Shown here piece by piece: positions 10,613 through 25,840 of a DNA stretch of 64,000 bases. Made by a program: the position numbers and the translations under genes. Position 1 is the first letter of the stretch. The number at the start of each line of letters is the position of its first letter. This DNA is from Candidatus Peregrinibacteria bacterium (GTDB lineage Bacteria > Patescibacteriota > Gracilibacteria > Peribacterales > Peribacteraceae). The DNA lies in assembly GCA_030649955.1 (NCBI GenBank), contig JAUSFD010000012.1, forward strand, positions 1 through 64,000, given 5' to 3'. Under the pieces are notes generated by a model. That model saw nothing but the letters and a program-made list of their open reading frames with translations, had not been told where the DNA came from and ran no database searches.

Positions 10613-12040
10613 ATGCACCCGAACGATCCCCTGCGGGCGACACTGCACGATCCCAAAGTCGTCGCGATTGCACTGGGTGCAGTCGTCTCTGTCCTCGTCG
10701 CAGGGTCACTCTTCTTCGTGCGTGGTCGCGCGATGATGGAGACACAACTCAAGGAGAGATTGCGTGCGACAGCAGCGGTTGCCGTTCTCCAGTTCGATGC
10801 AGAGGAGATTGCGAACCTCCCGCGGACGAATCAACCCGAGAATGCGGCGTATCGTGATGCCGTCATTCGCTTGGGGAGGATTCGGCAAGAGATCCCGGGG
10901 GTGCACTACGCGTACATCATGCGGCGGACAGATGACCCGATGACCCTCCAGTTCGTCGCTGATGCCGATGCGTTCGCGACGGACGTCGATCTCGATCGCG
11001 ACAAAAATGGCACCGTCGAGGAGGATGAGGAGGCATCGTTCGCGGGGGATCCGTACGATATCAGTGAGATTCCCGCACTGCAGGGTGAAGCGTTCCTCCG
11101 TCCAACAGTGGATGAGGACATCACGGTGGATCAGTGGGGCACCCTCATCTCCGGCTACGCGCCCATCCGCCGCGCCGGCGGCGAAGTGGTTGCTGTCCTG
11201 GGACTCGACATGGATGCCGAGGAGTTCCAGGCGCTCTCGCACAGTATCTTCTCGCCCATCGCCCTTCTCCTCTTCCTCGCTGCTGGTAGTGCGATCGCTG
11301 CGGTGATCGTCGTCTCGCTCGCGCGCAGGAGGATGGCCATGCTCCGGGAGTTGAGCGACGGCAAATCCTCGCTCATGAGTCTCACGAGTCACCAGTTGGG
11401 TAGCCCCCTCACGATCTTCAAATGGTCAGTGGAGGCGCTGCGCGATCGCTCAAAGAAGGAGTCCCTTGAGCGTGCCGTGAAGGAGCACATCGCCCGCATG
11501 GATGAAGGCATCGAACGTATGGATAGCGTCCTCACCGCTCTCCAGGATGCCGATAGGATCCAGTCTGGGACACTCGGCTACCACCCGCAGAAGCTCTCTC
11601 TGAATGCCACGGTTCGTGATGTCCTGCGCACCCTCCCCGCCGTGCAGAAGATGAAGCGCAAGATCGCGCTCACCCTTGGGAAGGATGTGACGATGCCGAT
11701 TGATCGCAAGCTCCTTGCTGGAGTTCTCCGCGAGCTCATCGACAACGCCCTGAACTTCTCCCCCGAGCGCAGTGTGATCACCATCCGCACCGTCCGCCGC
11801 GCAGACGAGGTGCAGTTTTGCGTCATCGATCATGGCTGCGGTATCCCCGCGAAAGAGATCCCCCACATCTTCGAGAAGTTCGTCCGTGGCTCGAAGGCCG
11901 TGAAGCTCCAGCCCAACGGCAATGGCCTAGGCCTCTACATCGCGAAGGGCATCATCGAGCGCGCTGGCGGACGCATGTGGATCACGAGCGTGGAGGGGAA
12001 GGGAACGACGGTGTGCTTCACCTTGCGAATAACAGAATAA
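10613..12040 (+). CDS. membrane sensor histidine kinase with an EF-hand-like loop
   Basis: 475 aa. TM1 is about residues 15-37 and TM2 about 213-236, enclosing a 175-residue extracytoplasmic sensor. That sensor contains D128-R-D-K-N-G-T-V-E-E-D-E139, which satisfies the 12-residue EF-hand calcium loop (acids at 1, 3, 9 and 12, Asn at 5, Gly at 6, hydrophobic at 8). HisKA follows with H260 in LTSHQLGSPL, then HATPase with N-box ELIDNALNFSP, G1 DHGCGIP and G2 NGNGLGLYI. No response regulator is adjacent. ATG 10613 follows a TATAAT by 14 nt. The C-terminus enters the heptamer hairpin at 12026. Confidence 0.9.
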   Translation: MHPNDPLRATLHDPKVVAIALGAVVSVLVAGSLFFVRGRAMMETQLKERLRATAAVAVLQFDAEEIANLPRTNQPENAAYRDAVIRLGRIRQEIPGVHYAYIMRRTDDPMTLQFVADADAFATDVDLDRDKNGTVEEDEEASFAGDPYDISEIPALQGEAFLRPTVDEDITVDQWGTLISGYAPIRRAGGEVVAVLGLDMDAEEFQALSHSIFSPIALLLFLAAGSAIAAVIVVSLARRRMAMLRELSDGKSSLMSLTSHQLGSPLTIFKWSVEALRDRSKKESLERAVKEHIARMDEGIERMDSVLTALQDADRIQSGTLGYHPQKLSLNATVRDVLRTLPAVQKMKRKIALTLGKDVTMPIDRKLLAGVLRELIDNALNFSPERSVITIRTVRRADEVQFCVIDHGCGIPAKEIPHIFEKFVRGSKAVKLQPNGNGLGLYIAKGIIERAGGRMWITSVEGKGTTVCFTLRITE

Positions 12041-12097
12041 CCGAATAACAGAGTAACAGGACCCTGTTATTCTGTTCCCGGTTCCCTGTTCCCTGCG
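12026..12097. repeat. hairpin with 8-nt repeat arms (GAATAACA type)
   Basis: The left arm GAATAACA-GAATAACC-GAATAACA-GAGTAACA pairs with the right arm CTGTTATTCTGTTCCC and following sequence. It lies between two convergent genes and could serve as a bidirectional terminator. Confidence 0.7.
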
Positions 12098-12101
12098 TAG
12101 T

Positions 12102-12632
12102 TTACGTCGGCTCGAGAAGCACCCCACCCTTCGATACCATTGGTTCCGTACACATGCTGCGGTTAAAACAACATGGCCTTCGCTCTCCTGCCTTGAGCTT
12201 CGAGAATGCGACGTCGATCCGTTTCTTCCGTGTGTCCGGGTTTTTGGTCGAACCTATCCAGCGGAGCCAATCCCAGCGTGCCATGGGCGTGATGTCCTTC
12301 CAGAGAACGTGCACTTTTGGATTGGCCGCGAGAGCGTTGTTCACATCTGCCGGCACTTTGGGTTCCGGCCATTGTTCCATCGGCTCCATCGCCAGGGTAA
12401 CGATGTCGCCCACGTCGGCTTTGGCCGCGTCGCCTATCGCTTTTGTCACCCTGAACCAGTGACTTCCCTTGCCGTCCGGTTCTAGTGGGGCTTGGAAGGG
12501 GGCGCCATTGATGGTTCCCTCGACCATTGCCATGCCTCGAGAGGGAAGCTTCGCGCTTGCACTCTTCGGCAGCAAGAGAATGGTCCATGAGCCGATGTTG
12601 AACGGTTCGGCCGTACAACGGATTGTCGTCAT
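12102..12632 (-). CDS. YdeI/OmdA-like protein (DUF1905 plus bacteriocin-protection domain)
   Basis: 176 aa. The N-terminal half fits DUF1905 (MVEGTINGAPFQAPLEPDGKG, then GDAAKADVGDIVTLAME). The C-terminal half has the OmdA/YdeI signature ARWDWLRWIGSTKNPDTRKKRI followed by SKLKAGERRPCCFN. The family was linked to bacteriocin resistance in other bacteria, but the molecular role is unclear. TACTAT with TGC before it sits 6 nt before the ATG. It is the first chromosomal gene beyond the stacked integrative elements. Confidence 0.8.
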   Translation of the reverse strand: MTTIRCTAEPFNIGSWTILLLPKSASAKLPSRGMAMVEGTINGAPFQAPLEPDGKGSHWFRVTKAIGDAAKADVGDIVTLAMEPMEQWPEPKVPADVNNALAANPKVHVLWKDITPMARWDWLRWIGSTKNPDTRKKRIDVAFSKLKAGERRPCCFNRSMCTEPMVSKGGVLLEPT

Positions 12633-12638
12633 AGGGAA

Positions 12639-12644
12639 ATAGTA
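12639..12644 (-). promoter_or_regulatory. -10 box of the YdeI-like gene
   Basis: TACTAT (extended by TGC) on the minus strand, 6 nt before ATG 12632. Confidence 0.45.
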
Positions 12645-12659
12645 GCATTAACTTTTGGG

Positions 12660-12743
12660 GTGAAGATCCTCCGAATAAGTTTACACCACCTCGAGAAGTT
12701 GGTGATGGAGTGGGAGGAGCAGATTCAAGGGCTGCCTGTCTAA
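12660..12743 (+). pseudogene. orphan serine-recombinase C-terminus at att scar 1
   Basis: Open from GTG 12660 to TAA 12741-12743. The peptide starts VKILRISLHHLEKLVMEWEE. It aligns with the peptides at 13764 and 14102: V1, (L/V)4, R5, (S/N)7, (L/W)8, (N/H)9, W18 and E20 are shared. The preceding TGGGGTGAAGAT is a diverged copy of TGGTGGAGAT, the tmRNA 3' end read on this strand. Confidence 0.65.
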
Positions 12744-13672
12744 CGCTTTCTCAATCTACTTTTGCGGTATTCTTCGATTGCCTCCTTCGTTGTGTACCAT
12801 ATTCTCCCATGCTTTACCGCGAAGATGCGTCCCGTACGAGCGAGAAGATTGATGTACTTCTGACTGTATGGAGTACTGCGACTCACCTCACCTAAGGTGA
12901 CGAGCTTGCTCGGTTTTTCCCTGGCGAACGTCCGCAGATAGAGATCGAGTGTGCGTTCGACCGCTTGGGCAACAAAGAGCGTCAGTGGAGCAAGTTCACC
13001 GCTATCCGCTTTCTGCAGTACATCATAATATTTCTTGCGATCGTTTTTGAGAATGATGGCGATGGGAAAGCCTTTGCGCATGAGCACAACGTTCATCACG
13101 AGGCGCGCACTACGACCGTTGCCGTCAAAGAAGGGGTGAATGGCGGCAAGTTTATGGTGCAGAATCGCTGCTAGTTCAACGGTATGCAATTTCCTTTCGT
13201 TCTTCTGTAGCCACTGCATCAGATTTGCCATCTGTCGTGGAACATCAAGAGCATCCGGTGGCATATGCGCGGCTCCTCCGATGATGACGGCACCATTTCT
13301 ATATTTTCCCGCCCATTCTTTCTCTGTTTCCTGAACAACCAACTGATGGAGCTGCCGTATCAGATGCTCAGAAATCGTGCAGCGCTTTCCTGATACAAGT
13401 TCGTACAGGAATTCGAGTGCTTCTTTGTGGTCCTTCGCTTCGAGATGATCTTTGAGGGGTTTTCCTTTGATTGTCATGCCCTCATGGAGCACAAGCCAGG
13501 TTTCACGGAGCGTGAGACTGTTCCCCTCGATAGCATTGGAGTTGTACGTCATTTCGATCTCCAACTGTTCACGAAACTTCTGCACTTGCAGAGCACTGAG
13601 TGGTCTGAGTTCGTTGAGTTTCAAGAGTTTCTCATCGAGCCGTCTGCGAATGCGTGGATCAAGAAACGTCAT
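12740..13672 (-). CDS. Fic family protein, class II with N-terminal inhibitory motif
   Basis: 310 aa. The catalytic Fic motif HPFFDGNGRSAR is complete, so AMP (or another NMP) transfer from a nucleotide triphosphate to a target hydroxyl is expected. N-terminal SNAIEGN matches the (S/T)xxxE(G/N) inhibitory helix, placed ahead of the core as in class II Fic proteins, and predicts auto-inhibition. A C-terminal winged-helix-like segment (LGEVSRSTPYSQKYINLLARTG) suggests DNA binding. ATG 13672 is chosen because AAGGAT precedes it and because the operator-like repeat at 13681-13709 then falls in the promoter. It is the sole cargo of the oldest island module. Confidence 0.9.
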   Translation of the reverse strand: MTFLDPRIRRRLDEKLLKLNELRPLSALQVQKFREQLEIEMTYNSNAIEGNSLTLRETWLVLHEGMTIKGKPLKDHLEAKDHKEALEFLYELVSGKRCTISEHLIRQLHQLVVQETEKEWAGKYRNGAVIIGGAAHMPPDALDVPRQMANLMQWLQKNERKLHTVELAAILHHKLAAIHPFFDGNGRSARLVMNVVLMRKGFPIAIILKNDRKKYYDVLQKADSGELAPLTLFVAQAVERTLDLYLRTFAREKPSKLVTLGEVSRSTPYSQKYINLLARTGRIFAVKHGRIWYTTKEAIEEYRKSRLRKR

Positions 13673-13680
13673 ATCCTTAG

Positions 13681-13709
13681 TATGGCATAGATCGAATATA
13701 TATGCCATA
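13681..13709. promoter_or_regulatory. operator-like inverted repeat upstream of fic
   Basis: TATGGCATA and TATGCCATA form a perfect 9-bp inverted repeat with an 11-nt spacer, overlapping the likely -10 (CATACT on the minus strand). The Fic protein's own C-terminal helix-turn-helix could bind here. Confidence 0.55.
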
Positions 13710-13763
13710 CCATATTAAGAATGATAGCCTGTTGTGATAGTATTTGTCTGGCATTAGCCATTG

Positions 13764-13871
13764 GTGGAGATCCTGCGAAAAAGTTTGAACCAGATCACCG
13801 TGCAATTCTTCGGGTGGGCGGAGTTGCTTAATCAAACATCTTACTCACACCAGCAAAGACTTCTGCCTTGA
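13764..13871 (+). pseudogene. orphan serine-recombinase C-terminus at att scar 2
   Basis: The scar core TGGTGGAGAT (13762-13771) is identical over 10 bp to the tmRNA 3' end as read at 27625-27634. The frame from GTG 13764 gives VEILRKSLNQITVQFFGWAE and more, to TGA 13871. It is homologous to the peptides at 12660 and 14102 (shared R5, N9, W18, E20, LL). Confidence 0.65.
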
Positions 13872-14034
13872 TTCTTTCGTAGTGCGCATTGCCATCTTCA
13901 CCTCGTTCATTCATAACACGAGCTTCGGCATATGCCTCTTCAAGACGTCGATGACCATCTGCCTGACCATCAACTAATTTTTCAAAGTCACTCTTGCCTA
14001 CGCTGGATATGTCCGATCCTTGTGTGATACACAT
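13828..14034 (-). CDS. small hypothetical protein of the second module
   Basis: 68 aa, acidic and helical (SDFEKLVDGQADGHRRLEEAYAEARVMN cannot be assigned to a family). Its 3' end overlaps the antisense orphan recombinase peptide by 44 bp. The codon pattern and the lack of any other gene between the scars make it plausible cargo. Confidence 0.5.
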   Translation of the reverse strand: MCITQGSDISSVGKSDFEKLVDGQADGHRRLEEAYAEARVMNERGEDGNAHYERIKAEVFAGVSKMFD

Positions 14035-14098
14035 GCTTATAGTCTAATGAAATATTAGGATTTATCAAAAATATCATTTATTGGCTTGCAAAAGCCAT

Positions 14099-14105
14099 TG
14101 GTGGA
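14099..14105 (+). other. attL of the large integrative element
   Basis: TGGTGGA in the same orientation as TGGTGGA at 27625-27631 (tmRNA 3' terminus). Joining the recombinase gene at 27631 to this site restores an in-frame 33-codon extension, which independently fixes the crossover to this 7-bp core. Confidence 0.7.
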
Positions 14106-14202
14106 CTCCGTCAGAGAAAATTGGAACCGCCTTCAGGACATTGTTTTTGACTGGTACGAATTGCTCAGGCAATCCCCAAGGTACGTAAAAATGGCTTCTT
14201 GA
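14102..14202 (+). pseudogene. displaced C-terminus of the resident serine recombinase (scar 3)
   Basis: GTG 14102 to TGA 14202 reads VDSVRENWNRLQDIVFDWYE and 13 more residues. It is in frame with the recombinase at 26115 when the element is circularised at TGGTGGA. It is not a separate gene. It becomes the true recombinase tail only in the excised form. Confidence 0.7.
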
Positions 14203-14268
14203 TCAACTTGTAGCCAGTCATTTCACTCACTGGCAGAGAGTTGAATCATTGTATGAAGGGGCTGTGAT

Positions 14269-14952
14269 TTATTTTGATGCAGTCTCGATTCGTTTCTTGG
14301 CGATCAGAATCGCTTCTATCGTTGCCCTGTCGTCGTAAAAGTCTTCGATGATGCGTTGCGCGTAGCCGTGGGCTAGGTCTACTTCATCACTGCTTACTTC
14401 GCGCCAATCATCATGCACGACTTCATTTCCAAGGACGCGTATTTCTTCGTGTGCTCGTTTTTTTCTCGTTTCAGTCAGAACGCCATCCTTCGCCGCGGCA
14501 TCAATCTTTTGCTGCAACTTTCCTTCGGTGTAGCCGTTTGCTTTCAGAACTTTTTCAAGTACAGATCGAAACAAAGCGGATGCCGCTCTGTACGCTCCTA
14601 CCGAAGCGCTAAGCTCTGCTTCACGAAACTCCGCTTCGATTCCATCTGGCAGACCGTTTGGTAATTTGAGAGTGTTGATTGAACGCGGAAAAAACTCGAT
14701 CAGCTTGTCATGATTTCCGCCACAGATAGAAGCGATGCCGCCTCTGCCACATCCTGCACACCGCACCAAACGGTATATCGCATGGGGGTAGGTCTGTCCT
14801 TCGTGTCGATGCGGACGTTCGCAGCGAATATGCCCGAACTCCTTGTGGCCATCTGAGACTTCAAACGTTGTGACTGCTCCATCGCAATCAGGGCATCGCG
14901 CACGCACATTCGAATTATGAAGTGTCGGTTTCATATCCATATTATGCTCCAT
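14269..14952 (-). CDS. DUF4145 protein with N-terminal zinc ribbon
   Basis: 227 aa. The N-terminus has CPDC and CAGC pairs consistent with a zinc ribbon. The C-terminal 120 residues fit DUF4145 (ELSASVGAYRAASALFRSVLEKVLKA, then HEEIRVLGNEVVHDDW). The family is common beside restriction systems and is thought to have a nucleic-acid or defence role, not experimentally defined. ATG 14952 is chosen because AGGA lies 7 nt upstream. It is divergent from hsdR, about 180 bp away. Confidence 0.8.
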   Translation of the reverse strand: MEHNMDMKPTLHNSNVRARCPDCDGAVTTFEVSDGHKEFGHIRCERPHRHEGQTYPHAIYRLVRCAGCGRGGIASICGGNHDKLIEFFPRSINTLKLPNGLPDGIEAEFREAELSASVGAYRAASALFRSVLEKVLKANGYTEGKLQQKIDAAAKDGVLTETRKKRAHEEIRVLGNEVVHDDWREVSSDEVDLAHGYAQRIIEDFYDDRATIEAILIAKKRIETASK

Positions 14953-15132
14953 AATCAAATCCTAGCCAATCCTAGCCCCTTAGCTGCATTTTTCTGCTGC
15001 GTAGTTACCTATCATTCAAACATCCATTCAAAACGCCACAGAAGATTTCTAGCACTCCAGTGCCACTCGGAGTTGTCAAAACATGTTCAGAGTTGTCCAA
15101 AAACACGCTAAACTGCCGCTACCCGCGCCCCT

Positions 15133-17937
15133 ATGACACACCAATCAGAATCCAAGACTCGGCAGGAAATTATCGACGATCGCCTGAAGAAAGCAGGCTG
15201 GAACGTCAAAGACCCTTCTCAAGTGACTGAGGAGCTCGATATTTGGGTGGGTCTACCCGAAGACGCGGAGGAGCCCATGAACGAGTTTCAGGGGCATAGA
15301 TTCGCTGACTACGTACTCCTCGGAGAGGATGGATACCCGCTTGCTGTCGTTGAGGCCAAGAAGACCGCTCGTGATGCGCGGGTCGGGCAGGAACAGGCGA
15401 AGCAGTACGCCGATAACATCGCGGAGAAGGCGGGGCGTGAAATGCCTTTTGTCTTTTTCACGAATGGGCACGACATCTATTTCTGGGACACGGAGCGATA
15501 CCCACCACGAAAGGTCTATGGGTTCCCGACGCGCAAGGATTTGGAACGCCTGAAATATCTCCGCACCGCGGCTAAACCGCTCTCGCAGGAACTCATCAAC
15601 CGCGATATTGCTGAGAGGCCGTATCAGATTGAGGCTATCCGACGAGTGTTGGAAGGCGTAGAGAAGGCGCAGCGCAAGTTCCTGCTCGTCATGGCGACAG
15701 GCACAGGCAAGACACGTACATGCGTCTCCTTGCTCGACGTGCTCATGCGCGGCAACCGCGCTCAGCGTGTCCTGTTCCTTGTGGATAGAGTCGCATTGCT
15801 TGAACAGGCGCGTGATGCGTTCAGGGAGTTTTTACCCAATGCCCCGATCTGGCCGAAGCAGGGGGAGAAGGAAATCGCAACAGATCGCCGCATTTACATC
15901 GGAACGTATCCGACTCTGCTCAATATCATCGAGAAGGTGGATTGTCCTCTCAGCCCCCACTTTTTCGATCTGATCGTGGCAGACGAAAGCCACCGCTCCA
16001 TCTACAACGTCTACCGCAATATTTTCGACTATTTCGACTGCATCCAGCTCGGCCTCACAGCCACGCCTACTGACGCTATCGAGCACAACACATTCGATCT
16101 GTTCCAGTGTGAAGATGGCGACCCGACGTTTGCATACACCTATGAGGAGGCTGTGAACAACAAGCCACCGTACCTCTCTACTTTCGAGGCGTTTTCGATA
16201 CAGACGAAGTTCCAGAACGAAGGCATCCACCACGACAAATTGTCGATTGAAGACCAGAAAAAGCTGCTTTCCGAAGGCAAGGAACCCGAAGACATCAATT
16301 TCGAGGGAACAGATTTGGAGAAGAAAGTGAGCAACAAAGGAACGAACGCCCTCATCGTGCAGGAGTTTATGGAGGAGTGCATCAAGGACGACAGCGGGAC
16401 GCTGCCCGGCAAAACAATCTTCTTCGCCATGACGAAGAAACATGCGTACCGCTTGCAGGAGATTTTCGACAGCCTCTATCCCGAACTGAAGGGCAAGATC
16501 GCCAAGGTGCTCGTCTCCGAAGATAACCGCGTTCACGGCAGAGGCGGTCTGCTCGATCAATTCAAGAACAACGACATGCCGCGCATCGCTATCAGCGTGG
16601 ATATGCTTGATACGGGCATCGACGTGCGCGAAATCGTGAACCTTGTCTTTGCCAAACCAGTATTTTCGTACACGAAATTCTGGCAAATGATCGGACGCGG
16701 AACGCGCTTGCTGGAGCCGAAAGCGATGAAACCGTGGTGCTCGAAGAAGGACAAGTTCCTGATTATGGACTGCTGGAATAACTTTGCCTATTTCGAGATG
16801 AACCCGAAGGGCAAGGAAGATCGCCCGACGAAGCCGCTACCTGTGCGCGTCTTCGAAACTCGACTTCAGAAGTATATTGCTGCGGAGAAGGCTGGAGAAA
16901 AACTGATCGCTGCGAACACCATCAAGGCGCTACGTGCCGACATTGCCAAGCTGCCAGAGAACAACGTCGTGGTGCTGGATGCGAAATCGAAAATCGACAG
17001 ACTCGATGATGCGTTCTGGAAGGCACTCAACAGCGACAAACAGCTCTATCTTCAGAAGGAAATTGCGCCGCTGATGCGCTCACGCTCGAACGAGGACTTC
17101 AAGGGGATGGGTCTTGAACTCAATATGTTGCAGCTCTCTGTCGCCCGTCTTGAAGCGAACGCGGAGAAGATCGAAACGCTGGAGCAAGTCATTATCGAGA
17201 AGGTATCCGACTTACCCATGACCGTGAACACAGTCGCCAAGGAACAGGAACTGGTGGAGTCGATTTTGAATAATGGGCGTATCCACAAGGCCGATGACGA
17301 CGAATTGCAGGAGATTCAGGTCAAACTCGCACCGCTGATGAAGTTCCGCGACGAGGGTTTCAAGATCGACCAAGAGAAGATCAATTTGCGCGATATCACC
17401 GCCGATAAGCAGTTCATCGAGTTCGGCCCCGCCAACGAGCGCGTCACAGTGCAGAAGTACCGCGAGAAGGTGGAGGCACTCATCAAAAAGTTGGAGGCGG
17501 AAAATCCTATTTTGCAGAAGGTCAAAGCGGGAGAAAATCTTTCGAATAAAGAAGTCGAGCAGCTTGCCGATACACTGGAGCAATACGACCCTTACCCGAC
17601 GGAAAAGAACCTTCAGAAAGCGTACGACGCAAGAAGGGTTCAATTTCTCGATCTCATCAGGTACATTATGGGGATCGGGGAACTCAAAACATTTCCCGAC
17701 AAGGTATCAGAAGCATTTGCGGAGTTCATCACTCAGCACAATACGATGACCGCAAAACAGATTCAGTTTTTGCAGACGCTTCAGACCTTTATCGTCGAGA
17801 ACGGAAAGCTCGACAAGAAAGACCTTACGCGTGAGCCGTTCACTCGCTTCCACGCAAAAGGCTTCCTTGGCTTATTCAAGCCAAAGGAACGCGAGGAGAT
17901 TCTGACCCTCGCTACCTCACTCCTTACACATGCTTAG
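15133..17937 (+). CDS. hsdR: type I restriction enzyme, endonuclease/translocase subunit
   Basis: 934 aa. The N-terminal nuclease domain has the PD-(D/E)xK elements (FADYVLLGEDG, then AVVEAKK). The SF2 motor has Walker A MATGTGKTRT, the DEAD-box variant DESH (IVADESHRSIYN), motif III LTATP and motif VI QMIGRGTRL. The C-terminal EcoEI-type domain of about 300 residues binds the methylase. It cleaves unmodified DNA after ATP-driven translocation. TAAACT lies 18 nt before the ATG and no Shine-Dalgarno site is visible. It overlaps hsdM by 8 bp. Confidence 0.95.
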   Translation: MTHQSESKTRQEIIDDRLKKAGWNVKDPSQVTEELDIWVGLPEDAEEPMNEFQGHRFADYVLLGEDGYPLAVVEAKKTARDARVGQEQAKQYADNIAEKAGREMPFVFFTNGHDIYFWDTERYPPRKVYGFPTRKDLERLKYLRTAAKPLSQELINRDIAERPYQIEAIRRVLEGVEKAQRKFLLVMATGTGKTRTCVSLLDVLMRGNRAQRVLFLVDRVALLEQARDAFREFLPNAPIWPKQGEKEIATDRRIYIGTYPTLLNIIEKVDCPLSPHFFDLIVADESHRSIYNVYRNIFDYFDCIQLGLTATPTDAIEHNTFDLFQCEDGDPTFAYTYEEAVNNKPPYLSTFEAFSIQTKFQNEGIHHDKLSIEDQKKLLSEGKEPEDINFEGTDLEKKVSNKGTNALIVQEFMEECIKDDSGTLPGKTIFFAMTKKHAYRLQEIFDSLYPELKGKIAKVLVSEDNRVHGRGGLLDQFKNNDMPRIAISVDMLDTGIDVREIVNLVFAKPVFSYTKFWQMIGRGTRLLEPKAMKPWCSKKDKFLIMDCWNNFAYFEMNPKGKEDRPTKPLPVRVFETRLQKYIAAEKAGEKLIAANTIKALRADIAKLPENNVVVLDAKSKIDRLDDAFWKALNSDKQLYLQKEIAPLMRSRSNEDFKGMGLELNMLQLSVARLEANAEKIETLEQVIIEKVSDLPMTVNTVAKEQELVESILNNGRIHKADDDELQEIQVKLAPLMKFRDEGFKIDQEKINLRDITADKQFIEFGPANERVTVQKYREKVEALIKKLEAENPILQKVKAGENLSNKEVEQLADTLEQYDPYPTEKNLQKAYDARRVQFLDLIRYIMGIGELKTFPDKVSEAFAEFITQHNTMTAKQIQFLQTLQTFIVENGKLDKKDLTREPFTRFHAKGFLGLFKPKEREEILTLATSLLTHA

Positions 17938-19444
17938 TTCCAAACTCCGCTCCGCCGTTGACCGCCTATGGGACAAGTTCTGGAGCGGTGGCATCTCCAA
18001 TCCACTGACCGCAATCGAACAGATTTCGTATCTTCTGTTTATGAAACGGCTTGATGAACTCGATTTGAAGAAAGCGCAGGACGCGGAGTTCACAGGTGAA
18101 AAGTTCACGTCATTCTTCAATGGAGTAAATCAGGGACTGCGCTGGAGCCAATTCAAACAGATGGAAGGCGGGGCGATGCTCGATCACATGCAGCAGAAAG
18201 TATTTCCGTTCCTGAAGACACTGGGCAAAACAGACAGCCCCTTTGCGAAGCACATGGGCAATGCTGTTTTCATTATCAACAAGCCGTCACTGCTTGTAGA
18301 AGCCGTAAGTATTATCGACGAAATATACGATGAAATATCGCGTGAGCAAACTGAGGGGCAGGAGTTTCAGGACACACAGGGTGATCTGTACGAACATTTG
18401 CTTTCGGAGATCACCAGCGCAGGCAAACTCGGCCAGTTCCGTACGCCACGCCATATCATCCAGATGATGTGTGAGTTGGTGAACCCGAAGCTCGGAGACA
18501 CGATCTGTGACCCCGCGTGTGGCACGGGCGGCTTCCTCCTCGGCGCATACCAGCACATTCTGACGCAGCATACGAGCGAGAAGCACCGTGTGACTGATGC
18601 GAATGGTCTTCAGCGTGGTCTTGTAGGCGATAAGCTCACAGATGAGCGGCAGTGGAAGCACTTGAAAGAAAAAACATTCTTCGGTTATGACGCTGACGAA
18701 GCGATGGTGCGCATCGGCTTGATGAACCTGATGATGCACGGAATCAGCCATCCGAATATCACTCAGCGCGATACACTCTCCAAAAACTACAGTGAAGACG
18801 GCGTGTATGACGTGATCATGGCGAATCCACCGTTCAAAGGCAGTCTTGATACGGGCGATATCAATGAAGGTTTTATGCTCCCTACAACTAAGACGGAATT
18901 GTTGTTTGTGAACCGCATCGTCAACTCATTGAAGATCGGAGGTCGTGCTGCAGTGATCGTGCCTGACGGCGTTCTCTTTGGCTCCAGCAATGCTCACAAA
19001 CTGGCAAGAAAAATGCTCATCGAGCAATGTGAGTTACAAGGCGTGATCTCCATGCCTAGTGGTGTTTTCAGACCGTACGCAGGAGTCAGCACTGCGGTTT
19101 TGGTATTTGTGAAGGGTGGAGACACGGAGAAAGTCTGGTTTTACGATATGGAAGCCGACGGCTACAGTCTCGACGATAAGCGTGAAAAGATCGGGGCAAA
19201 CGACATACCCGACATCGTTGCACAGTGGAATAAGCGCAGTCAGATGAAGCAAGGCGATCGGAAGACTAAATGTTTTTTGGTTGGACGCGAAGAGATAGAA
19301 AAGAACGACTATGATCTGAGTTTGAGCCGCTACAAAGAAGTGACGTATGAAACCGTCGAGTATGAGAAGCCCGAGGTGATACTTGGAAAGATTGAGAAAT
19401 TGGAGAGTGAGATTATGGAGGGCATCCGCTCCTTACGCTCATAA
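17930..19444 (+). CDS. hsdM: type I restriction-modification methyltransferase subunit
   Basis: 504 aa. The N-terminal HsdM helical domain starts RSAVDRLWDKFWSGG. The SAM site is DPACGTGGFLLGAY and the catalytic motif is MANPPF, the N6-adenine type. It forms the modification complex with HsdS. It is followed 2 nt later by hsdS. Confidence 0.95.
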   Translation: MLSSKLRSAVDRLWDKFWSGGISNPLTAIEQISYLLFMKRLDELDLKKAQDAEFTGEKFTSFFNGVNQGLRWSQFKQMEGGAMLDHMQQKVFPFLKTLGKTDSPFAKHMGNAVFIINKPSLLVEAVSIIDEIYDEISREQTEGQEFQDTQGDLYEHLLSEITSAGKLGQFRTPRHIIQMMCELVNPKLGDTICDPACGTGGFLLGAYQHILTQHTSEKHRVTDANGLQRGLVGDKLTDERQWKHLKEKTFFGYDADEAMVRIGLMNLMMHGISHPNITQRDTLSKNYSEDGVYDVIMANPPFKGSLDTGDINEGFMLPTTKTELLFVNRIVNSLKIGGRAAVIVPDGVLFGSSNAHKLARKMLIEQCELQGVISMPSGVFRPYAGVSTAVLVFVKGGDTEKVWFYDMEADGYSLDDKREKIGANDIPDIVAQWNKRSQMKQGDRKTKCFLVGREEIEKNDYDLSLSRYKEVTYETVEYEKPEVILGKIEKLESEIMEGIRSLRS

Positions 19445-19446
19445 CT

Positions 19447-20643
19447 ATGCCAATTCTTGAACTTCAGAAAATCGCGCAGGTATTCAACGGCAAAACACCG
19501 TCCAAAAAAGAACAGCGCGATAAAGGTTTTCCTGTGCTGAAAATAAAGAATGTTTCAGAGGATGGTTTTTTTCGAGGGCAATTTACGTCATTTGTGGATG
19601 AAGAAATGGCAGGCTGTTTTCCTCAGAAGGTACTAAATGAAAATGACGTTTTGCTCCTGAACGCTGCCCATAACTCAGACTACGTTGGATCAAAAAACTG
19701 CTTTGTAACAACAGAAATGGCTGGCGCTCTTGCAACTGGTGAATGGATGATCATTCGAGCTGATATTTCTTCTGTTCTACCACGTTATTTGTATTTCTTC
19801 ATCAATGCGCCTCAGACCAAGCAGGCAGTCAAAAACATCGTGAAAGGTATCCACTTATATCCGAAGGATTTGAAAAAAATCAGTATTCCTATTCCCTCCA
19901 TTGAGGAGCAGAAGCGAATCGTTGTTGTCCTCAGTAGAGCTGACTCCTTACGTCGCAAGCGCAAGGAAGCAATCAAACTGTTGGATGAGTATGTGGAATC
20001 GGTATTCATTGAGATGTTTGGTGATCCGTTGATCAACCCGAAGAATTGGCAAAAAATGCCACTTGAATCTTTACAAGTAACTGATGGGATAAAGTGTGGA
20101 CCATTCGGCACGCAACTTTCAAAAAGTGAGTTTCAAGATAAGGGAGTGCCACTCTGGGGAATCAAGCATGTCAATGTTCACTTCAAATTGCCAACGAACG
20201 AGTTTTTGTCAGAAAATAAGGCCAGCCAACTAGATATGTACTCGCTATGCCCTGGTGATATCGTAATGACCCGCAAGGGAACGATTGGAAACTGCTCAGT
20301 GTACCCCACACATTTTGCCAAAGGTGTTATGCACTCTGACTTACTTCGTTTGAGGATAGATACGACAAAGTCCATTCCTGAATATCTCAGCTTTCAGCTA
20401 AGGATAAGCCCCGATGTGCGTTTCCAACTAAATCGCATTAGCGTTGGTGCAATCATGGCTGGTGTCAATGTTACGAAATTGAAAAAGTTGACCGTTCTAG
20501 TCCCTCCCTTGAATCTCCAAAGAGACTTTTTGGAATTTACAACACAGATCAACGAGATCAGAAAAAAAATGCGCTTACAATCAGATGAGCTAAATCACCA
20601 ATTCAATACAATCATGCAAAGAACGTTTGCTAATGCACTCTAG
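19447..20643 (+). CDS. hsdS: type I restriction-modification specificity subunit
   Basis: 398 aa with two target-recognition domains (about 1-150 and 205-355) separated by a conserved helical spacer (IPSIEEQKRIVVVLSRADSLRRKR) and a second spacer at the C-terminus (VPPLNLQRDFLEFTTQINEIR). Each domain should read one half of a bipartite target, which cannot be predicted. It is more A+T rich than hsdR/hsdM, as expected for an exchanged specificity module. Confidence 0.93.
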   Translation: MPILELQKIAQVFNGKTPSKKEQRDKGFPVLKIKNVSEDGFFRGQFTSFVDEEMAGCFPQKVLNENDVLLLNAAHNSDYVGSKNCFVTTEMAGALATGEWMIIRADISSVLPRYLYFFINAPQTKQAVKNIVKGIHLYPKDLKKISIPIPSIEEQKRIVVVLSRADSLRRKRKEAIKLLDEYVESVFIEMFGDPLINPKNWQKMPLESLQVTDGIKCGPFGTQLSKSEFQDKGVPLWGIKHVNVHFKLPTNEFLSENKASQLDMYSLCPGDIVMTRKGTIGNCSVYPTHFAKGVMHSDLLRLRIDTTKSIPEYLSFQLRISPDVRFQLNRISVGAIMAGVNVTKLKKLTVLVPPLNLQRDFLEFTTQINEIRKKMRLQSDELNHQFNTIMQRTFANAL

Positions 20644-20650
20644 CTACGGA

Positions 20651-20869
20651 CTATTTCAACTTCGACCGCCGTTTTTTCGGTTGACCCTGCTTCTGCTTTC
20701 GCGCCACCTGAAACGCCTCTACATCGCTTTTGAGGAAAACCATGCGTGAAGCAGTTTTCTTGTATCGGAGCTTCCCAGCTCGTGCGAGGCGGTCAACGTA
20801 CTGACGAGAAACGCGGAGGTATTTCGCCACATCACCATTGCCCATGATGTCTGGAAATTGATCTTTCAT
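20651..20869 (-). CDS. excisionase-like helix-turn-helix protein
   Basis: 72 aa. A MerR/Xis-type winged HTH (NGDVAKYLRVSRQYVDRLARAGKL), then a wing (YKKTASRMVFLKSDVEAFQ) and a Lys/Arg/Gln-rich tail (KQKQGQPKKRRSKLK). Small proteins of this type direct excision or act as repressors in integrative elements. It is convergent with hsdS (7 nt apart) and divergent from the lipoprotein-like gene, with overlapping palindromes in between. Confidence 0.75.
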   Translation of the reverse strand: MKDQFPDIMGNGDVAKYLRVSRQYVDRLARAGKLRYKKTASRMVFLKSDVEAFQVARKQKQGQPKKRRSKLK

Positions 20870-20916
20870 GCTGCTGAACTTGATCTTTTATGTTATTTCC
20901 TGAAGACTGATGTATA

Positions 20917-20946
20917 TAGGTGTCCTATGACACCTAGTTGTCATAG
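20917..20946. promoter_or_regulatory. overlapping palindromes between divergent genes
   Basis: TAGGTGTC-CTAT-GACACCTA (20917-20936) and CTATGACA-CCTAGT-TGTCATAG (20925-20946) are both perfect inverted repeats and share one half-site. This is the arrangement expected for cooperative operator sites of the excisionase-like protein. Confidence 0.6.
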
Positions 20947-20963
20947 AGCACCCCAGACTGACT

Positions 20964-21554
20964 ATGAAACAGAATCGTCTCATCCTGCTCATCATTGGCA
21001 CTGTCATTCTTGGTATTGCACTCTTTGGAGCGTTCCTCGAGTCAGAGGAGCAGAAGAAGGAGTTACCACCACAGGCTGTGACCACAAACAGCGTGTCCTC
21101 AAACGAGCCAGCCGATGCTCTACCAGTTGACCCCTATCAGCGCATTGTTGACCTTGTAGCGAAGTACGACGAGTACCCCGATATTTCCAATCTGAATGAT
21201 GTGAACGCGAAGAATCCCAAGCCGCCATTCGATGTAATCGTGGTCATGGATCATGTACAAGGCTGCGTCACGGCGAAGCAGAAGGCGCAGCGCATCATGC
21301 ACGAGCTGTACTTCGATCCTGTTGTTGGCCCGACTATCCTGCGCGTGAAGGTGATCAACAACGAGTACGTCAGCGCAAGTCTCGGCAGGGAGGGGGCGCA
21401 AAAAATGGACGCATCGTGGTGGAACGATGGGCCGTCCAATTTCATTGGTGTGCTTCAGACGGTTGCGGATTACGACATGGACATGGAGGAGGACGCAACG
21501 AGCAGGACTGTTCAGGGCTACACGTACGCGGAGTTGCAACGGGGATGCCAGTGA
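20964..21554 (+). CDS. membrane-anchored hypothetical protein
   Basis: 196 aa. An N-terminal hydrophobic helix (RLILLIIGTVILGIALFGAFL) acts as signal anchor, followed by a Ser/Pro/Glu-rich linker and a 130-residue domain with paired Cys residues (VQGCVTAKQKAQ near the middle, LQRGC at the end). I do not recognise the family. It lies inside the element ahead of the cluster leading to the tyrosine recombinase. Confidence 0.65.
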   Translation: MKQNRLILLIIGTVILGIALFGAFLESEEQKKELPPQAVTTNSVSSNEPADALPVDPYQRIVDLVAKYDEYPDISNLNDVNAKNPKPPFDVIVVMDHVQGCVTAKQKAQRIMHELYFDPVVGPTILRVKVINNEYVSASLGREGAQKMDASWWNDGPSNFIGVLQTVADYDMDMEEDATSRTVQGYTYAELQRGCQ

Positions 21555-21630
21555 GGACACCGAGGCCGCCTTTCGACGTGAGCTATGGCCTGTCCGTTTC
21601 CGATCTCACGTTTGCAGTTGAGGAATCGGA

Positions 21631-21685
21631 TTGTCAGAACTGACAACGCTGTTGACGATATTGCCAACGTTGACAATTCTGTCAG
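21631..21685. promoter_or_regulatory. TGTCA/TGACA operator-like array
   Basis: A perfect palindrome TTGTCAGAACTGACAA (21631-21646) is followed by TTGACG and then TTGACAATTCTGTCAG (21670-21685), which has 5-bp arms. The array precedes the operon that starts at 21695 and could bind a dimeric repressor. Confidence 0.5.
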
Positions 21686-21694
21686 TGCGACGAA

Positions 21695-22381
21695 ATGGAT
21701 ATTCAGGTGTATTTTGTCTCCGTGGAAACATCCCTGCACCCGTCTGGAAATGATCAGGCCATTGGTGATCTCCTCTTGCAAGGGGCGGTATGGGCAAAGG
21801 TGGAGGATATGATTCGCCTCGGCTTCCCGACTGTAGGAATCGCCAAGATGCTTCTTGATGAGTGTCCTGAGATTGCCGCGCACTATCAGCAGAACAGTAG
21901 AGCGGCAGACAGCCTCGCTCGGCTTATCCGCTACCACTCGCAGAAGCGCATTTCGATGGAGGAGCGATTCGGCTATGCCAAAATGAGAGCATATCTGGAG
22001 AGGGCGGCAGACGGCATCGACGTGCTCCAGTCGATGAAGAACACCATCGAGGTGCAGCAGGAGCGTTGCGGTCGGGCATGTCTACTGGAGAACAAGATAG
22101 GCATCCCATCGGAGATGGCAGGAAGAGAACTGGAGCGGCTTGTGACGATGCTGTTCAAGCTCGGCCAAATCTTCACCGCTGCGGGGCTCGTGTCGTACCT
22201 GCAAGCACCGAAGCCGCCTATGGATGGAGCAAGGTCTGTAGCCTCTCAGGAACGCAAAGGACGCTTTGAAAGAGCGTTGGGTAGATATCTTGAGGATCAT
22301 CCGGGTGTCACCGCAGCAAGAGCAATGGAAGACCTGACAGGCATCACGGATATTACGAGGGGCGCACCGAACTCACATTGA
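21695..22381 (+). CDS. hypothetical helical protein, first gene of the recombinase operon
   Basis: 228 aa, predicted mostly alpha-helical, no signal peptide. A segment WAKVEDMIRLGFPTVGIAKMLL looks like a helix-turn-helix (resolvase-tail or homeodomain-like), which suggests DNA binding. The rest is unrecognised. It is co-directional with three downstream genes ending in the tyrosine recombinase and lies just after the operator-like array at 21631-21685. Confidence 0.6.
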   Translation: MDIQVYFVSVETSLHPSGNDQAIGDLLLQGAVWAKVEDMIRLGFPTVGIAKMLLDECPEIAAHYQQNSRAADSLARLIRYHSQKRISMEERFGYAKMRAYLERAADGIDVLQSMKNTIEVQQERCGRACLLENKIGIPSEMAGRELERLVTMLFKLGQIFTAAGLVSYLQAPKPPMDGARSVASQERKGRFERALGRYLEDHPGVTAARAMEDLTGITDITRGAPNSH

Positions 22382-22411
22382 CCCCTCGCCGCCCTCAAGC
22401 ACGATCAAGTC

Positions 22412-22714
22412 GTGCATCAAAGTGAAGTGCGAAAAAACGGCTTACGGATAATCAAAGACGTGTATTGGACGGTGCTCGGAAGTGATGATCGCAACCTGTG
22501 GAAGGAGGCGATTCAGTCGATGCACCATCACATTGCGATGCTAGAACGAAAGGTGCGAGAAGCCGCCGCGAACGATGCGGAGAACGCCAATTTCCTTGTG
22601 ACCGAACTCTGGGCGTGGAACTCGGCACGTCGGCAGCTCTGCGCTCGGTTCGGCAGCAAATTCATACTTCCTTCCCTCCATTCCCATGAAGAAAAGTCAG
22701 ACGAGCCTCTTTGA
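22412..22714 (+). CDS. small hypothetical protein
   Basis: 100 aa from GTG 22412. A helical, charged segment (LWKEAIQSMHHHIAMLERKVRE) resembles a coiled coil. It overlaps the next gene by 29 bp, which argues for a translated member of the operon. Function unknown. Confidence 0.55.
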   Translation: MHQSEVRKNGLRIIKDVYWTVLGSDDRNLWKEAIQSMHHHIAMLERKVREAAANDAENANFLVTELWAWNSARRQLCARFGSKFILPSLHSHEEKSDEPL

Positions 22715-23387
22715 AGGCACAGAGCACGACCCGAAACCCAAACATTTTTACAACCGCTACGATCTCGTGAGCTTCCTCCTGAAGTCGATACGCCTGAATC
22801 GGAAGGAAGACGCGCTGACAGCCATGTGGTGTCTCATACAGGAAGGCGCGGGGCAGTGGTACATCGCCAAGAAGCTCGTTCAGTTTGCCAGCGAGGACGC
22901 GACCGGACCTGAAGCGTTTATTTACGCCCAGAGCGTCTTCCAGCTCATCAAGGACGTGACGGACGAAGTGAACAGCCTTTCACGCTTGATCATTTACCTC
23001 TGCGACGCTCCGAAGATGTGGGAGAGTGAAAAAGAAACGGAGTTGGAAGTCAGACGCATCCACCTGCGTGAGAAGATCAAGAAGCAGTACCAACGCGGAG
23101 AGAAGCCCATAGAGCTGCCGAGCTATGTTTTTGATGTCTACACCGCGAAAGGAAAATCGGCAGCACGTAGAGGTGAAGAAATAGATCGTAGGGCATCTGG
23201 AGTATTGGAGGGTTCAGGATTGTTCTGCCGTGCCACATACTTGCGTTACGAACGACTTGATATGGACGATACGATCATTGCTCAGGCGTACAGCAAGCAT
23301 CTGCTGAAGTGCGCGAAAGAAGGTCTGCATGTGGATGCGTATTTGCGGAAGCATGATTTGACCATTGATGAGTTTTTGAAGCCATGA
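22686..23387 (+). CDS. RarA/MgsA C-terminal-domain-like protein lacking the AAA+ ATPase
   Basis: 233 aa. Residues about 20-115 match the layout of the RarA (MgsA) C-terminal helical and oligomerisation domains: DALTAMWCLIQEGAGQWYIA, KKLVQFASEDATGPEA, and LIIYLCDAPKMWES correspond to the family blocks around 'A-x-(W)-x-R-M, I-A-R-R-(L/M)-V-x-F-A-S-E-D' and 'Y-L-A-x-A-P-K'. No Walker motifs are present. In RarA this part forms the tetramer and contacts SSB and DNA polymerase partners. Here it may modulate the host RarA or act at the element's recombination intermediate (inference). It overlaps the tyrosine recombinase start by 4 bp. Confidence 0.6.
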   Translation: MKKSQTSLFEGTEHDPKPKHFYNRYDLVSFLLKSIRLNRKEDALTAMWCLIQEGAGQWYIAKKLVQFASEDATGPEAFIYAQSVFQLIKDVTDEVNSLSRLIIYLCDAPKMWESEKETELEVRRIHLREKIKKQYQRGEKPIELPSYVFDVYTAKGKSAARRGEEIDRRASGVLEGSGLFCRATYLRYERLDMDDTIIAQAYSKHLLKCAKEGLHVDAYLRKHDLTIDEFLKP

Positions 23388-24316
23388 GCACATTTCTCCT
23401 TCCCACTCCGGCAGTCAGCAGTCCGAGCATCACGGACTATGTGCATCCGTTTCTGGTTCAGCAGGACTCCGATGGGACGCGCCGTGAATATCAAAGTGAG
23501 ATTCGCTTGTTTGGTGCGTGGATCGGAAAGCCCCTTGGTCATGTAACGCCGCTCGAGATCATCGCGTACAGGAAGCATCTTGAGGAACGAGGACTCAAAG
23601 CGGCAACCATACGGAAGAAATTGGCGATTCTGCGTAGTTTTTATGGTTTCATTTCGCAGGCGTTCGGACTCCCGAATCCTGCTCTTTGTGTGCGTCTTCC
23701 GAAGGCAACAGACCAGAGCATAAAAGCCGTGCTGTCTCTTCAGGAGGTGGGAAGACTTCTCTCGGTGATCGACATGGACACGCCCCTCGGGAAGCGCGAC
23801 CTCGCCATGCTTGGGCTGCTTCTCGTCAACGGACTTCGCAGTATCGAGGTGAGTAGAGCGAACTTCGGTGATATGCGTGAGATTGAAGGCATGATCGCAT
23901 TGCGAGTTCGTGGTAAAGGCGGACGGATTGAGGACACGCGGCTGCGGGAGGATGTCCACAGAGCGATCCAAAGTTATCTGGCAACACGACAGGAAGTGGA
24001 ACCAGACGAACCACTTTTTCGTTCCGTCGGGAACCTCGCAAGCGAGGAGGGGCGCATGAGTCCCAAGACAGTGCAGGCACGGGTGCGCTACCTCTACCGT
24101 CTTGCCAAGCTGGAGAAGCCGATGCTCAGCCCACACAGCCTTCGAGCGACCTGTGCCGTGCTGACAATTTCCATCGGGAAGGCCGACCTGCTGCAAGTCC
24201 AGCGTCTTCTTCGTCACCGTTCGCCTTCTACAACCCTTGTCTACGTTCAAGCACTCGACTCCCTCCGCGAGAGTGCGGTGAGCCGTAACCCGATCTCGCT
24301 CGATGGTCTTTTGTAA
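23384..24316 (+). CDS. tyrosine recombinase (XerC/D-like integrase)
   Basis: 310 aa. The N-terminal SAM-like DNA-binding domain (FLVQQDSDGTRREYQSEIRLFGAWI) is followed by the catalytic domain. Arg I is in LLLVNGLRSIEVSRA, the box II residues are HSLRATCAV, and the C-terminal part has LLRHRSPSTTLVYV with the nucleophilic Tyr. It starts within the stop of the RarA-like gene (ATGA). In an element already carrying a large serine recombinase it may resolve multimers or drive an internal cassette. Confidence 0.9.
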   Translation: MSTFLLPTPAVSSPSITDYVHPFLVQQDSDGTRREYQSEIRLFGAWIGKPLGHVTPLEIIAYRKHLEERGLKAATIRKKLAILRSFYGFISQAFGLPNPALCVRLPKATDQSIKAVLSLQEVGRLLSVIDMDTPLGKRDLAMLGLLLVNGLRSIEVSRANFGDMREIEGMIALRVRGKGGRIEDTRLREDVHRAIQSYLATRQEVEPDEPLFRSVGNLASEEGRMSPKTVQARVRYLYRLAKLEKPMLSPHSLRATCAVLTISIGKADLLQVQRLLRHRSPSTTLVYVQALDSLRESAVSRNPISLDGLL

Positions 24317-24368
24317 GCCCGCAGCCATGACCCAAAACTCCATACCAGTACATCACCGCATCAAGGGT

Positions 24369-24390
24369 CAGGGGGGCTTGCGCCCCCCTG
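24369..24390. terminator. GC-rich hairpin between convergent genes
   Basis: CAGGGGGGCTTGCGCCCCCCTG forms a 7-9 bp stem between the tyrosine recombinase and the DUF2188 gene. No U-run follows, so it may only pause transcription or belong to the CTTG-loop repeat family. Confidence 0.45.
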
Positions 24391-24399
24391 TGATCTGAT

Positions 24400-24624
24400 T
24401 CAGCCCTTCGGAGGAAATGGGTCTGGCTTGCCGTACGTGTTGCGTTCGCGGATGAGATTATCCCTGCCGTGCAGGAGGACATCTCCGCCTTGGTTCTCCG
24501 CGATCTTACGTGCGGCATCGAACGCCTCCTGCTGAGTATCATGCTGGGAGGAGTCTCTGCCATTCCCTTCCCCTCGTACGCCCCACTTGTTGCCGGGGCG
24601 ATGCAGCACATGCTGGTTGGCCAT
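24400..24624 (-). CDS. DUF2188 family protein
   Basis: 74 aa from ATG 24624. It carries the family pattern: HVLHRPGNKWGVRGEGN, then THDTQQEA-like HDTQQEAFDAARKIAENQGGD, then LHGRDNLIRERNTYGKP. These small proteins are widespread and of unknown function, often in mobile DNA. Confidence 0.8.
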   Translation of the reverse strand: MANQHVLHRPGNKWGVRGEGNGRDSSQHDTQQEAFDAARKIAENQGGDVLLHGRDNLIRERNTYGKPDPFPPKG

Positions 24625-24717
24625 AAAAACGAGGAAAGGTAGCGAATAAAAGATTGCCGTGACCGCGAGAACCTGCTTCAATGCCCGTTGCTATTCCAGA
24701 GCATATCTGCGATAGGA

Positions 24718-24755
24718 AAGACGCGTGGCGGCCTCGGCTGTGGCGCGTCTTTTTT
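24718..24755 (+). terminator. intrinsic terminator with no assigned upstream gene
   Basis: AGACGCG pairs with CGCGTCT across an 18-nt loop, followed by a run of T residues (24750-24755). No plus-strand gene ends nearby, so it may end a small RNA or relic transcript starting around 24630. Confidence 0.5.
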
Positions 24756-24794
24756 AGTAGCGTGTGGTGAAGCTCATAGCGAGTGGGGAAAGTT

Positions 24795-24872
24795 GTGTAT
24801 GTAAGTCATACACGCTCCGCTATCATAGAGCAAGCGTATCATTCAACGCAAACGATTGACGTGTACGTACAC
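24795..24872 (+). promoter_or_regulatory. paired operators in the XRE promoter region
   Basis: GTGTATG-TAAGT-CATACAC (24795-24813) and GTGTACGTACAC (24861-24872) are each followed by the same CGCTCCGCTA box. The second lies inside the promoter spacer, the classic placement for auto-repression by an XRE protein. Confidence 0.65.
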
Positions 24873-24885
24873 GCTCCGCTACAAT
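24856..24885 (+). promoter_or_regulatory. sigma70-type promoter of the XRE/ImmA operon
   Basis: -35 TTGACG (24856-24861), 18-nt spacer, -10 TACAAT (24880-24885). The start codon at 24895 is 9 nt after the -10, so the mRNA should be leaderless or nearly so. Confidence 0.7.
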
Positions 24886-24894
24886 CCGCGCACT

Positions 24895-25233
24895 ATGAAC
24901 GACACCACTCGGAAAGAAATAGGCAAACGCATAAAGCAGTTGCGTGAGCAGCTTGGCTTGTCTCAGCTTGTTTTGGCTCAGATGGTGGGCAAGTCTTCAG
25001 CGGCCTACATTGCGTTCATTGAATCGGGCGAACGAAATATCAGCACGATGGATATGATGGTCTTGGCTAAGAAATTGGGAACGACTGTTTCGGAATTGTT
25101 GAGCGAACCGAAACGTGAAGAGAAGCCCACTTTTATGCGTGCTTTACGGTCAAGTAAGGACTTGAGTGAGAAAGATAAACAGAAAATCACTGAGTTCTAT
25201 GAGTTCCTCAAGAGCAAAAATCGTGATGAATGA
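24895..25233 (+). CDS. XRE-family HTH repressor
   Basis: 112 aa. An HTH_3 domain covers residues about 7-65 (KRIKQLREQLGLSQLVLAQM, then KSSAAYIAFIESGERNIS), followed by a charged tail. It is probably the repressor of its own operon through the palindromes at 24795 and 24861. The next gene, an ImmA-type protease, overlaps its stop by 8 bp, which matches the ImmR/ImmA pair that controls ICE excision in Gram-positive elements. Confidence 0.85.
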   Translation: MNDTTRKEIGKRIKQLREQLGLSQLVLAQMVGKSSAAYIAFIESGERNISTMDMMVLAKKLGTTVSELLSEPKREEKPTFMRALRSSKDLSEKDKQKITEFYEFLKSKNRDE

Positions 25234-25744: not shown

Positions 25745-25805
25745 AGCCACGCACTCTCTGAGTTGTCGAAAGTTGTCGAATACTTGGCTTAGCAGAGCCA
25801 AGAAA

Positions 25806-25834
25806 TTGACACTTCACGACCGCGAGAATAAGAT
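25806..25834 (+). promoter_or_regulatory. consensus promoter upstream of the recombinase
   Basis: -35 TTGACA (25806-25811), 17-nt spacer, -10 TAAGAT (25829-25834). This is the best match to sigma70 consensus in the window and drives a leader of about 120 nt before the 49-aa gene. Confidence 0.7.
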
Positions 25835-25840
25835 ACCTAC

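Follow-up and report, generated by a model that had tools for sequence, protein, structure and literature searches.

Stacked recombinase C-terminal tails suggest repeated insertion of a tail-swapping serine recombinase at a tmRNA gene of the Peribacteria

CIMEs accrete beside ICEs, and in composite SCC islands as well, att-bounded modules that lack a recombinase are stacked beside an element that bears one. Integron gene cassettes are short, mostly single-gene modules arrayed with a preferred gene orientation, in a system that relies on IntI and attC hairpins. The tmRNA locus described here, from a genome of the ultra-small Peribacteria, resembles the former in that two att-bounded modules without a recombinase (12660-13764 and 13764-14101) are stacked beside a recombinase-bearing element, and the latter in that such modules are short, mostly single-gene and arrayed with a preferred orientation. 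It differs from CIMEs and composite SCC islands, however, in that each boundary also bears a readable recombinase tail, mobilisation being only predicted, and from integrons in that a large serine recombinase (LSR) and putative double-strand attP halves take the place of IntI and attC hairpins.

In the case of the streptococcal ICEs found in rumA, the att site lies within a single serine integrase gene, and integration exchanges the 3' ends and alters the integrase C-terminus (PMC4701971). The Peribacteria elements likewise appear to carry att inside a serine integrase gene whose C-terminus changes on integration, but the rumA elements target a protein gene and change frames, whereas those of the Peribacteria target the T-arm of a tmRNA or tRNA gene, with the frame kept and tail scars stacked. 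Mycobacteriophage BPs has its attP inside the repressor gene, and integration shifts the C-terminus of that protein by ~33 residues (PMC4557955); the likeness is an attP within a phage gene and a C-terminus changed by integration, and the difference is that a repressor is affected there and the recombinase itself here. Islander tDNA islands occupy the 3' end of tRNA and tmRNA genes, form tandem arrays, rely on tyrosine integrases and leave behind a displaced piece of the tDNA, and the 2014 paper describing them stated that serine integrases targeting tDNAs were not known (PMC4383910). Insertion at a tRNA or tmRNA 3' end and tandem arrays are thus shared with our locus, but the att-adjacent enzyme here is a serine recombinase with a 5-7 bp core, and in a search for a displaced tDNA fragment the only sequence shared at 13762 and 14099 was TGGTGGA, with no further tmRNA in the window. 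Exchange of a serine integrase C-terminus, an integration-dependent repressor C-terminus and stacked recombinase-less modules are therefore already known. To the extent that we searched the open-access literature, serine recombinases aimed at the tRNA/tmRNA T-arm, an attP half-site that coincides with tail code, and orphan tails that can be counted as scars throughout a bacterial family are new.

The tmRNA locus and its three tails

The window, by which we mean the whole 64,000-nucleotide stretch that was analysed, is part of a contig (C20) of a 1.67-Mb genome (G000). From left to right, a chromosomal flank with a histidine kinase and an OmdA-like gene is followed by a Fic module, a 68-aa module, the resident element and the tmRNA gene, with the following features.

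3158, tRNA-Asn (ARAGORN and Rfam), one in the window
12656-12664, plus strand, degraded att core (TTGGGGTGA) of module 1, whose homology to G035 starts at 12659
12660-12743, plus strand, orphan recombinase tail 1 and putative attP half-site (VKILRISLHHLEKLVMEWEEQIQGLPV, then stop; profile 32.2 bits)
12740-13708, minus strand, Fic protein, cargo of module 1 (SoFic-like in PADLOC)
13762-13768, plus strand, att core TGGTGGA of module 2; homology to G072 starts at 13762
13764-13871, plus strand, orphan recombinase tail 2 and putative attP half-site (VEILRKSLNQITVQFFGWAELLNQTSYSHQQRLLP, then stop; profile 35.6 bits)
13828-14034, minus strand, 68-aa protein, cargo of module 2 (homologue 85% identical at the G072 tmRNA)
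14099-14105, plus strand, att core TGGTGGA at the left end of the resident element
14101-14202, plus strand, orphan recombinase tail 3 and putative attP half-site of the resident element (VDSVRENWNRLQDIVFDWYELLRQSPRYVKMAS, then stop; profile 34.8 bits)
14101-27626, resident element, 13.5 kb, with a DUF4145 gene, type I restriction-modification, a tyrosine recombinase, an XRE and ImmA-like pair and the serine recombinase
25962-26111, plus strand, 49-aa ORF directly 5' of the LSR gene, conserved among relatives
26115-27665, plus strand, LSR gene, a 516-codon ORF with native body to 27626, its last 12 codons being tmRNA sequence
27625-27631, plus strand, att core TGGTGGA at the tmRNA 3' end, exact
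27625-28033, minus strand, tmRNA (ARAGORN and Rfam), its T-arm the putative attB half-site

The LSR protein carries Resolvase (PF00239), Recombinase (PF07508) and zinc-ribbon (PF13408) domains, all above cut-off in a domain search, and its C-terminal residues (VEMPGIEPGSNV) are the tmRNA 3' end read in frame. When the LSR body is joined at the core to each of the three tails, reading is free of stops throughout, giving proteins of 537 aa with tail 3 and of 539 and 531 aa with the other two. The preliminary description had held that the third peptide comes into frame with the resident recombinase on circularisation; that is correct, and it applies to all three tails and not to the third only. 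The peptides that it had placed at 12660, 13764 and 14102 are all present, the third starting one base earlier, at 14101; the copy of the core said to precede each is exact at 13762 and 14099, as it is at 27625, but degraded at 12660 (GGGGTGAAG). The residues V1, (L/V)4, R5, (S/N)7, (L/W)8, (N/H)9, W18 and E20 recur in the three peptides as had been reported. Aligned over 24 residues without gaps, tails 1-3 give BLOSUM62 pair scores of 31, 30 and 43. The window has 74 other open peptides that start at GGTG[G/A]A; the best of their 2,701 pairs scores 30, and the sum seen for the tails was reached by none of ~288,000 random triples of comparable peptides.

Our main reading, to which we assign a probability of about 0.88, is that the LSR inserts at the tmRNA 3' end, swaps its own last ~30 amino acids in doing so and leaves its tails behind as stacked scars. 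With attB at the tmRNA 3' end and attP within the 3'-terminal part of the recombinase gene, a crossover between the two at GGTGGA would exchange the last ~25-40 codons, so that the integrated recombinase would end in tmRNA T-arm codons while its native tail would stay, bodiless, at the far end of the element. Each round would restore the tmRNA 3' end and the core, and newcomers would enter between the tmRNA and the older elements; on this reading the window would record at least three insertions, and because insertion would always take place beside the tmRNA, the farthest module, the Fic module at 12660, would be the oldest and the recombinase-bearing element at 14101-27626, beside the tmRNA, the youngest. 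From the arrangement we infer the crossover itself, this order of insertions and a loss of backbone genes by modules 1 and 2.

Comparison with other loci suits such a history. Several loci share the left flank of tRNA-Asn, AlaRS and histidine kinase by blastn, and the tmRNA site is therefore orthologous across them. G018, a single-contig genome, represents the empty state, with the histidine kinase, the OmdA-like ORF and the tmRNA within 1.2 kb and no tail; G072 has the 68-aa module alone beside its tmRNA, two tails are found in G030, G035, G037, G063 and G070, and three also in G071. The tail and Fic module adjoins the tmRNA in G035 too, its tail is decayed in G037, and in G025 and G021 a Fic gene adjoins the tmRNA with no recognised tail. 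The Fic module is homologous to G035, and the 68-aa module to G072, only from the core base onward, which fits site-specific boundaries.

As to the remaining contents, the 68-aa product matched no known family in domain and family searches, and no relaxase, coupling protein or VirB4 was found among the ten window proteins scanned for domains. The tyrosine recombinase (23384-24316) lies inside the resident element, away from the att ends, and the XRE and ImmA/IrrE-like pair at 24856-25744. Homologues of the 49-aa ORF occupy the same position in G016, G002, G322 and G327, related ORFs occur in L221, L230 and L233, and in G003 and G009 an ORF that resembles it sits further upstream of the LSR; an excisionase-like HTH protein takes its place in G020, G053 and G064. 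We regard the 49-aa ORF as a candidate directionality factor. Hairpins of the GGCTT...AAGCC type or REP-like palindromes abut the core at 13745-13763 and 14082-14100, and comparable structures lie in the right flanks of the tmRNA in G017, G029, G036 and G070. Such hairpins (GGCTT..AAGCC, GAGCGA..GAGTCGAAT) were considered as cassette ends and rejected; other loci have them right beside the tmRNA 3' end, which makes terminators downstream of the tmRNA, or REP-like repeats, the likelier identity.

Relatives, tail survey and free forms

LSRs 44-49% identical to that of the window are present in seven other genomes of the family. Those of G003, G020, G053 and G002 read into tmRNA 3' ends, those of G009 and G016 overlap tRNA-Arg or tRNA-Ala, and that of G064 stops at the contig edge. 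Far-end tails that follow GTGGA are found for G003, G009 and G016 (two), those of G003 and G009 being alignable to their stop codons, and tails likewise lie behind less closely related LSRs in G054 and at another locus of the genome that contains the window (G000:C31). No far-end tail was found for G002, G020 and G053 or for the more distant G077, several of these contigs being short on that side. A search of genome contigs with one query gave no LSR relative, a search of INPHARED phages gave none either, and L233 as a single query gave no additional relatives. We also tried a strict nucleotide pattern for the attP half-site and abandoned it, as its matches were mostly chance-like and most true sites were missed, while a peptide profile worked.

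This profile, built from nine tails, was used to scan 74 family genomes, in which its matches concentrate on the antisense strand downstream of tmRNA and tRNA genes. Across 57 oriented tmRNA loci and four tRNA elements, 33 tail sites exceed 20 bits, all on the expected strand; on the opposite strand none does, the best match reaching 4.1 bits. Extended blindly to another family, the profile returned the far-end tail as top match on the right strand both at the G322 tmRNA (18.2 bits) and at the G327 tRNA-Ala (12.7 bits), and it found no far-end tail in a third, more distant genome, G077. The G327 element has a 21-bp direct repeat at both ends. For some tails (G050:C1 484173, G011:C22 and G036:C42) no tRNA lies within reach, and a search of 15 other tail-bearing loci gave no relative of the recombinase; tails outnumber recombinases, so that most arrays are untraceable to a resident enzyme.

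Several further loci were recorded in the course of the survey. A second array at tRNA-Ala (L035, C31:20000-39999, 11141-17900) is laid out like that of the window, with two small modules carrying collagen-like genes and then a recombinase element whose LSR is distant (25% identity). L044 (G052:C14, reverse strand 4837, 7263 and 8262) belongs to another LSR subfamily, at tRNA-Glu, and has three stacked tails of a different build (AARG.RI.NSVIEGM.EWY). In L265 and L266 (6001-7847) the recombinase match exceeds that of relatives by ~340 bp and one frame contains stops; the extra stretch is probably an intron-like insertion. In the tmRNA region of G023 (L169, oriented 2224), 42 bp of the tmRNA 3' end occur a second time (97.6%), as a displaced tmRNA fragment of the kind typical of tyrosine-integrase islands.

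Free and integrated forms can be compared in two viral contigs, L230 and L233, whose recombinases are 72% identical. L230 is integrated in tRNA-Ala and its recombinase end is tRNA-derived (VELSGIEPLTSCMPCKRSPN); L233 has no tRNA at the recombinase end and keeps an intact 32-residue tail (VDISGESSNSFLDILRNWSDALNPYKSTLLAA), which matches the profile modestly (3.5 bits, with 7 of 2,000 shuffles as good). Judged from its sequence, L233 is an unoccupied, unintegrated relative. The related free phages L223 and L229 have apparent recombinase ends of only 7-8 residues. L046 (G064:C44, 7296 bp), with a recombinase at one contig end and a tail at the other, may be an excised circle, but its ends have no convincing overlap and are in frame only if they share one base, and we do not count it as proof.

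The match of the three window peptides to the far-end tails of integrated relatives and to the intact tail of unintegrated L233 bears out the earlier proposal that they are recombinase C-termini. A comparison of tmRNA loci for zero, one, two or three modules, also proposed there, shows all of these states within the same family, and three successive insertions at one tmRNA gene, as first proposed, are supported by the in-frame joins, the tails of the relatives and this series of states.

Attachment half-site and tail code in one DNA

Counted from the core, the motif GAACC starts at base 19 of the tmRNA T-arm in 54 of 57 loci, and at base 24 of the tails in 26 of 49, or in 38 of 49 when near variants are allowed. 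On attP the zinc domain of LSRs sits 5 bp further from the core than it does on attB (PMC3783163), and the offset between 24 and 19 equals this known shift; most simply, the tail DNA would thus be the attP half-site and the tmRNA T-arm the attB half-site. A short core of LSR type, GTGGA, is present along with the shifted zinc-domain motif, a comparison made for one half-site only, and the other attB half, in the left flank, showed no conserved motif.

Since R5, S7, W8 and N9 lie on the putative attP half-site, their conservation would be partly at the level of DNA, and one may ask if the orphan peptides are recombinase tails at all or if a conserved att half-site merely happens to be open. Residues 1-9 do fall on DNA-conserved half-site sequence, as such an account would have it. 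The coding constraint, however, sits beyond it: from codon 10 onward in the tail frame dN is below dS in 104 of 109 pairs (median 0.43 versus 1.04; the pairs are not independent), and in an alternative frame beyond the half-site the pattern is reversed (6 of 49 pairs). With the alignment of the G003 and G009 tails up to their stop codons, the intact fused tail of L233 and a frame maintained in all relatives also against it, we consider a chance-open half-site very improbable. The constraint past the half-site argues instead that the tail is real protein code as well as a putative attP half-site. A model of the L233 enzyme places the tail, at low confidence, as a separate helix (513-533) after a complete DNA-binding fold; its best PDB matches are serine integrase-att complexes (Bxb1, PhiC31, 4kis), a match at class level only, given the low pTM.

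Small modules, tail exchange and significance

The modules are mostly of 0.3-2 kb, often hold one gene and have no recombinase, and their cargo includes Fic proteins, a thymidylate-synthase-like gene, a DUF2975 gene and genes of no assigned function. Such modules are compatible both with full elements that have decayed and with compact cassettes that have dispersed; we lean slightly towards decay. At even odds, modules 1 and 2 would be full elements that lost backbone and recombinase by deletion and kept one useful cargo gene together with the tail at the far end. The full elements of G003 and G009, in fact, have minus-strand cargo by the tail, and backbone and recombinase on the tmRNA side; decayed or tail-less neighbours are known (G037 1287, G025 and G021), and the 15 tail-bearing loci without an LSR relative point the same way. 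Decay accounts less well for the 18 modules that measure less than 2.1 kb, for the compact layout of tail and Fic common to G000 and G035, and for the homology upstream of Fic, which stops at the same base in G000, G025, G037 and G021 and suggests that the compact unit predates its spread. Alternatively, recombinase-less modules may be mobilised in trans or in cis by the resident LSR and accrete at the tmRNA in the manner of cassettes or CIMEs, a possibility that we take seriously while giving it less credence. Left boundaries that lie exactly at the core despite differing flanks speak for it, as does the gene nearest the tail, which in 25 of 34 modules runs in the same sense as the tmRNA (p=0.009), and so does Fic, which is 78-84% identical between genera whose AlaRS is 52-56% and IleRS 58-64% identical. 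Fic is, however, ~72% identical across genera outside arrays too, which is compatible with vertical inheritance, and we have accordingly lowered our estimate of horizontal transfer of the Fic module as argued from identity alone. Moreover, small modules are bounded by attP' halves on both sides and by no attL/attR pair, and a canonical LSR therefore could not excise one alone; it would leave only with a recombinase-bearing neighbour via the single right-hand site, which predicts nested circles. The resident recombinase could pair that site with each of the left-hand sites, of which there are three, and so excise the resident element alone, that element with module 2, or that element with modules 1 and 2; each such circle would give it a different C-terminus. 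A serine-recombinase counterpart of the integron, in which compact modules of a single gene, with a tail-coding attP half-site at the head of each, would be captured serially at the 3' end of tmRNA/tRNA genes and pass from one Peribacteria genus to another, with the resident recombinase re-tailed by whichever module it joins, seems to us quite unlikely.

What the tail swap might do is a matter for a more tentative suggestion. It may act as a state switch, in which the tailed enzyme of the circle would favour integration and the tmRNA-tailed enzyme of the integrated element would be altered, so that the element is locked in. The low-confidence separate helix and the coding constraint on the tail are consistent with a switch, and the repressor of phage BPs is regulated by an integration-dependent C-terminal truncation (PMC4557955); the short ends that the free phages L223 and L229 seem to have are not what it would lead one to expect, and we hold a switch to be unlikely.

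If stacked tails are indeed insertion scars, as our main reading has it, a record of insertions could be read from sequence alone, with each past event countable by its tail even after the recombinase is lost. Serine recombinases that target the T-arm, stated as not known in the 2014 reference, are documented here, and natural attP/attB pairs are available for a T-arm-directed serine integrase. For the uncultured Patescibacteria, where methods based on tDNA fragments fail, the tails offer a route to mobile elements and to their cargo, such as Fic proteins and restriction systems.
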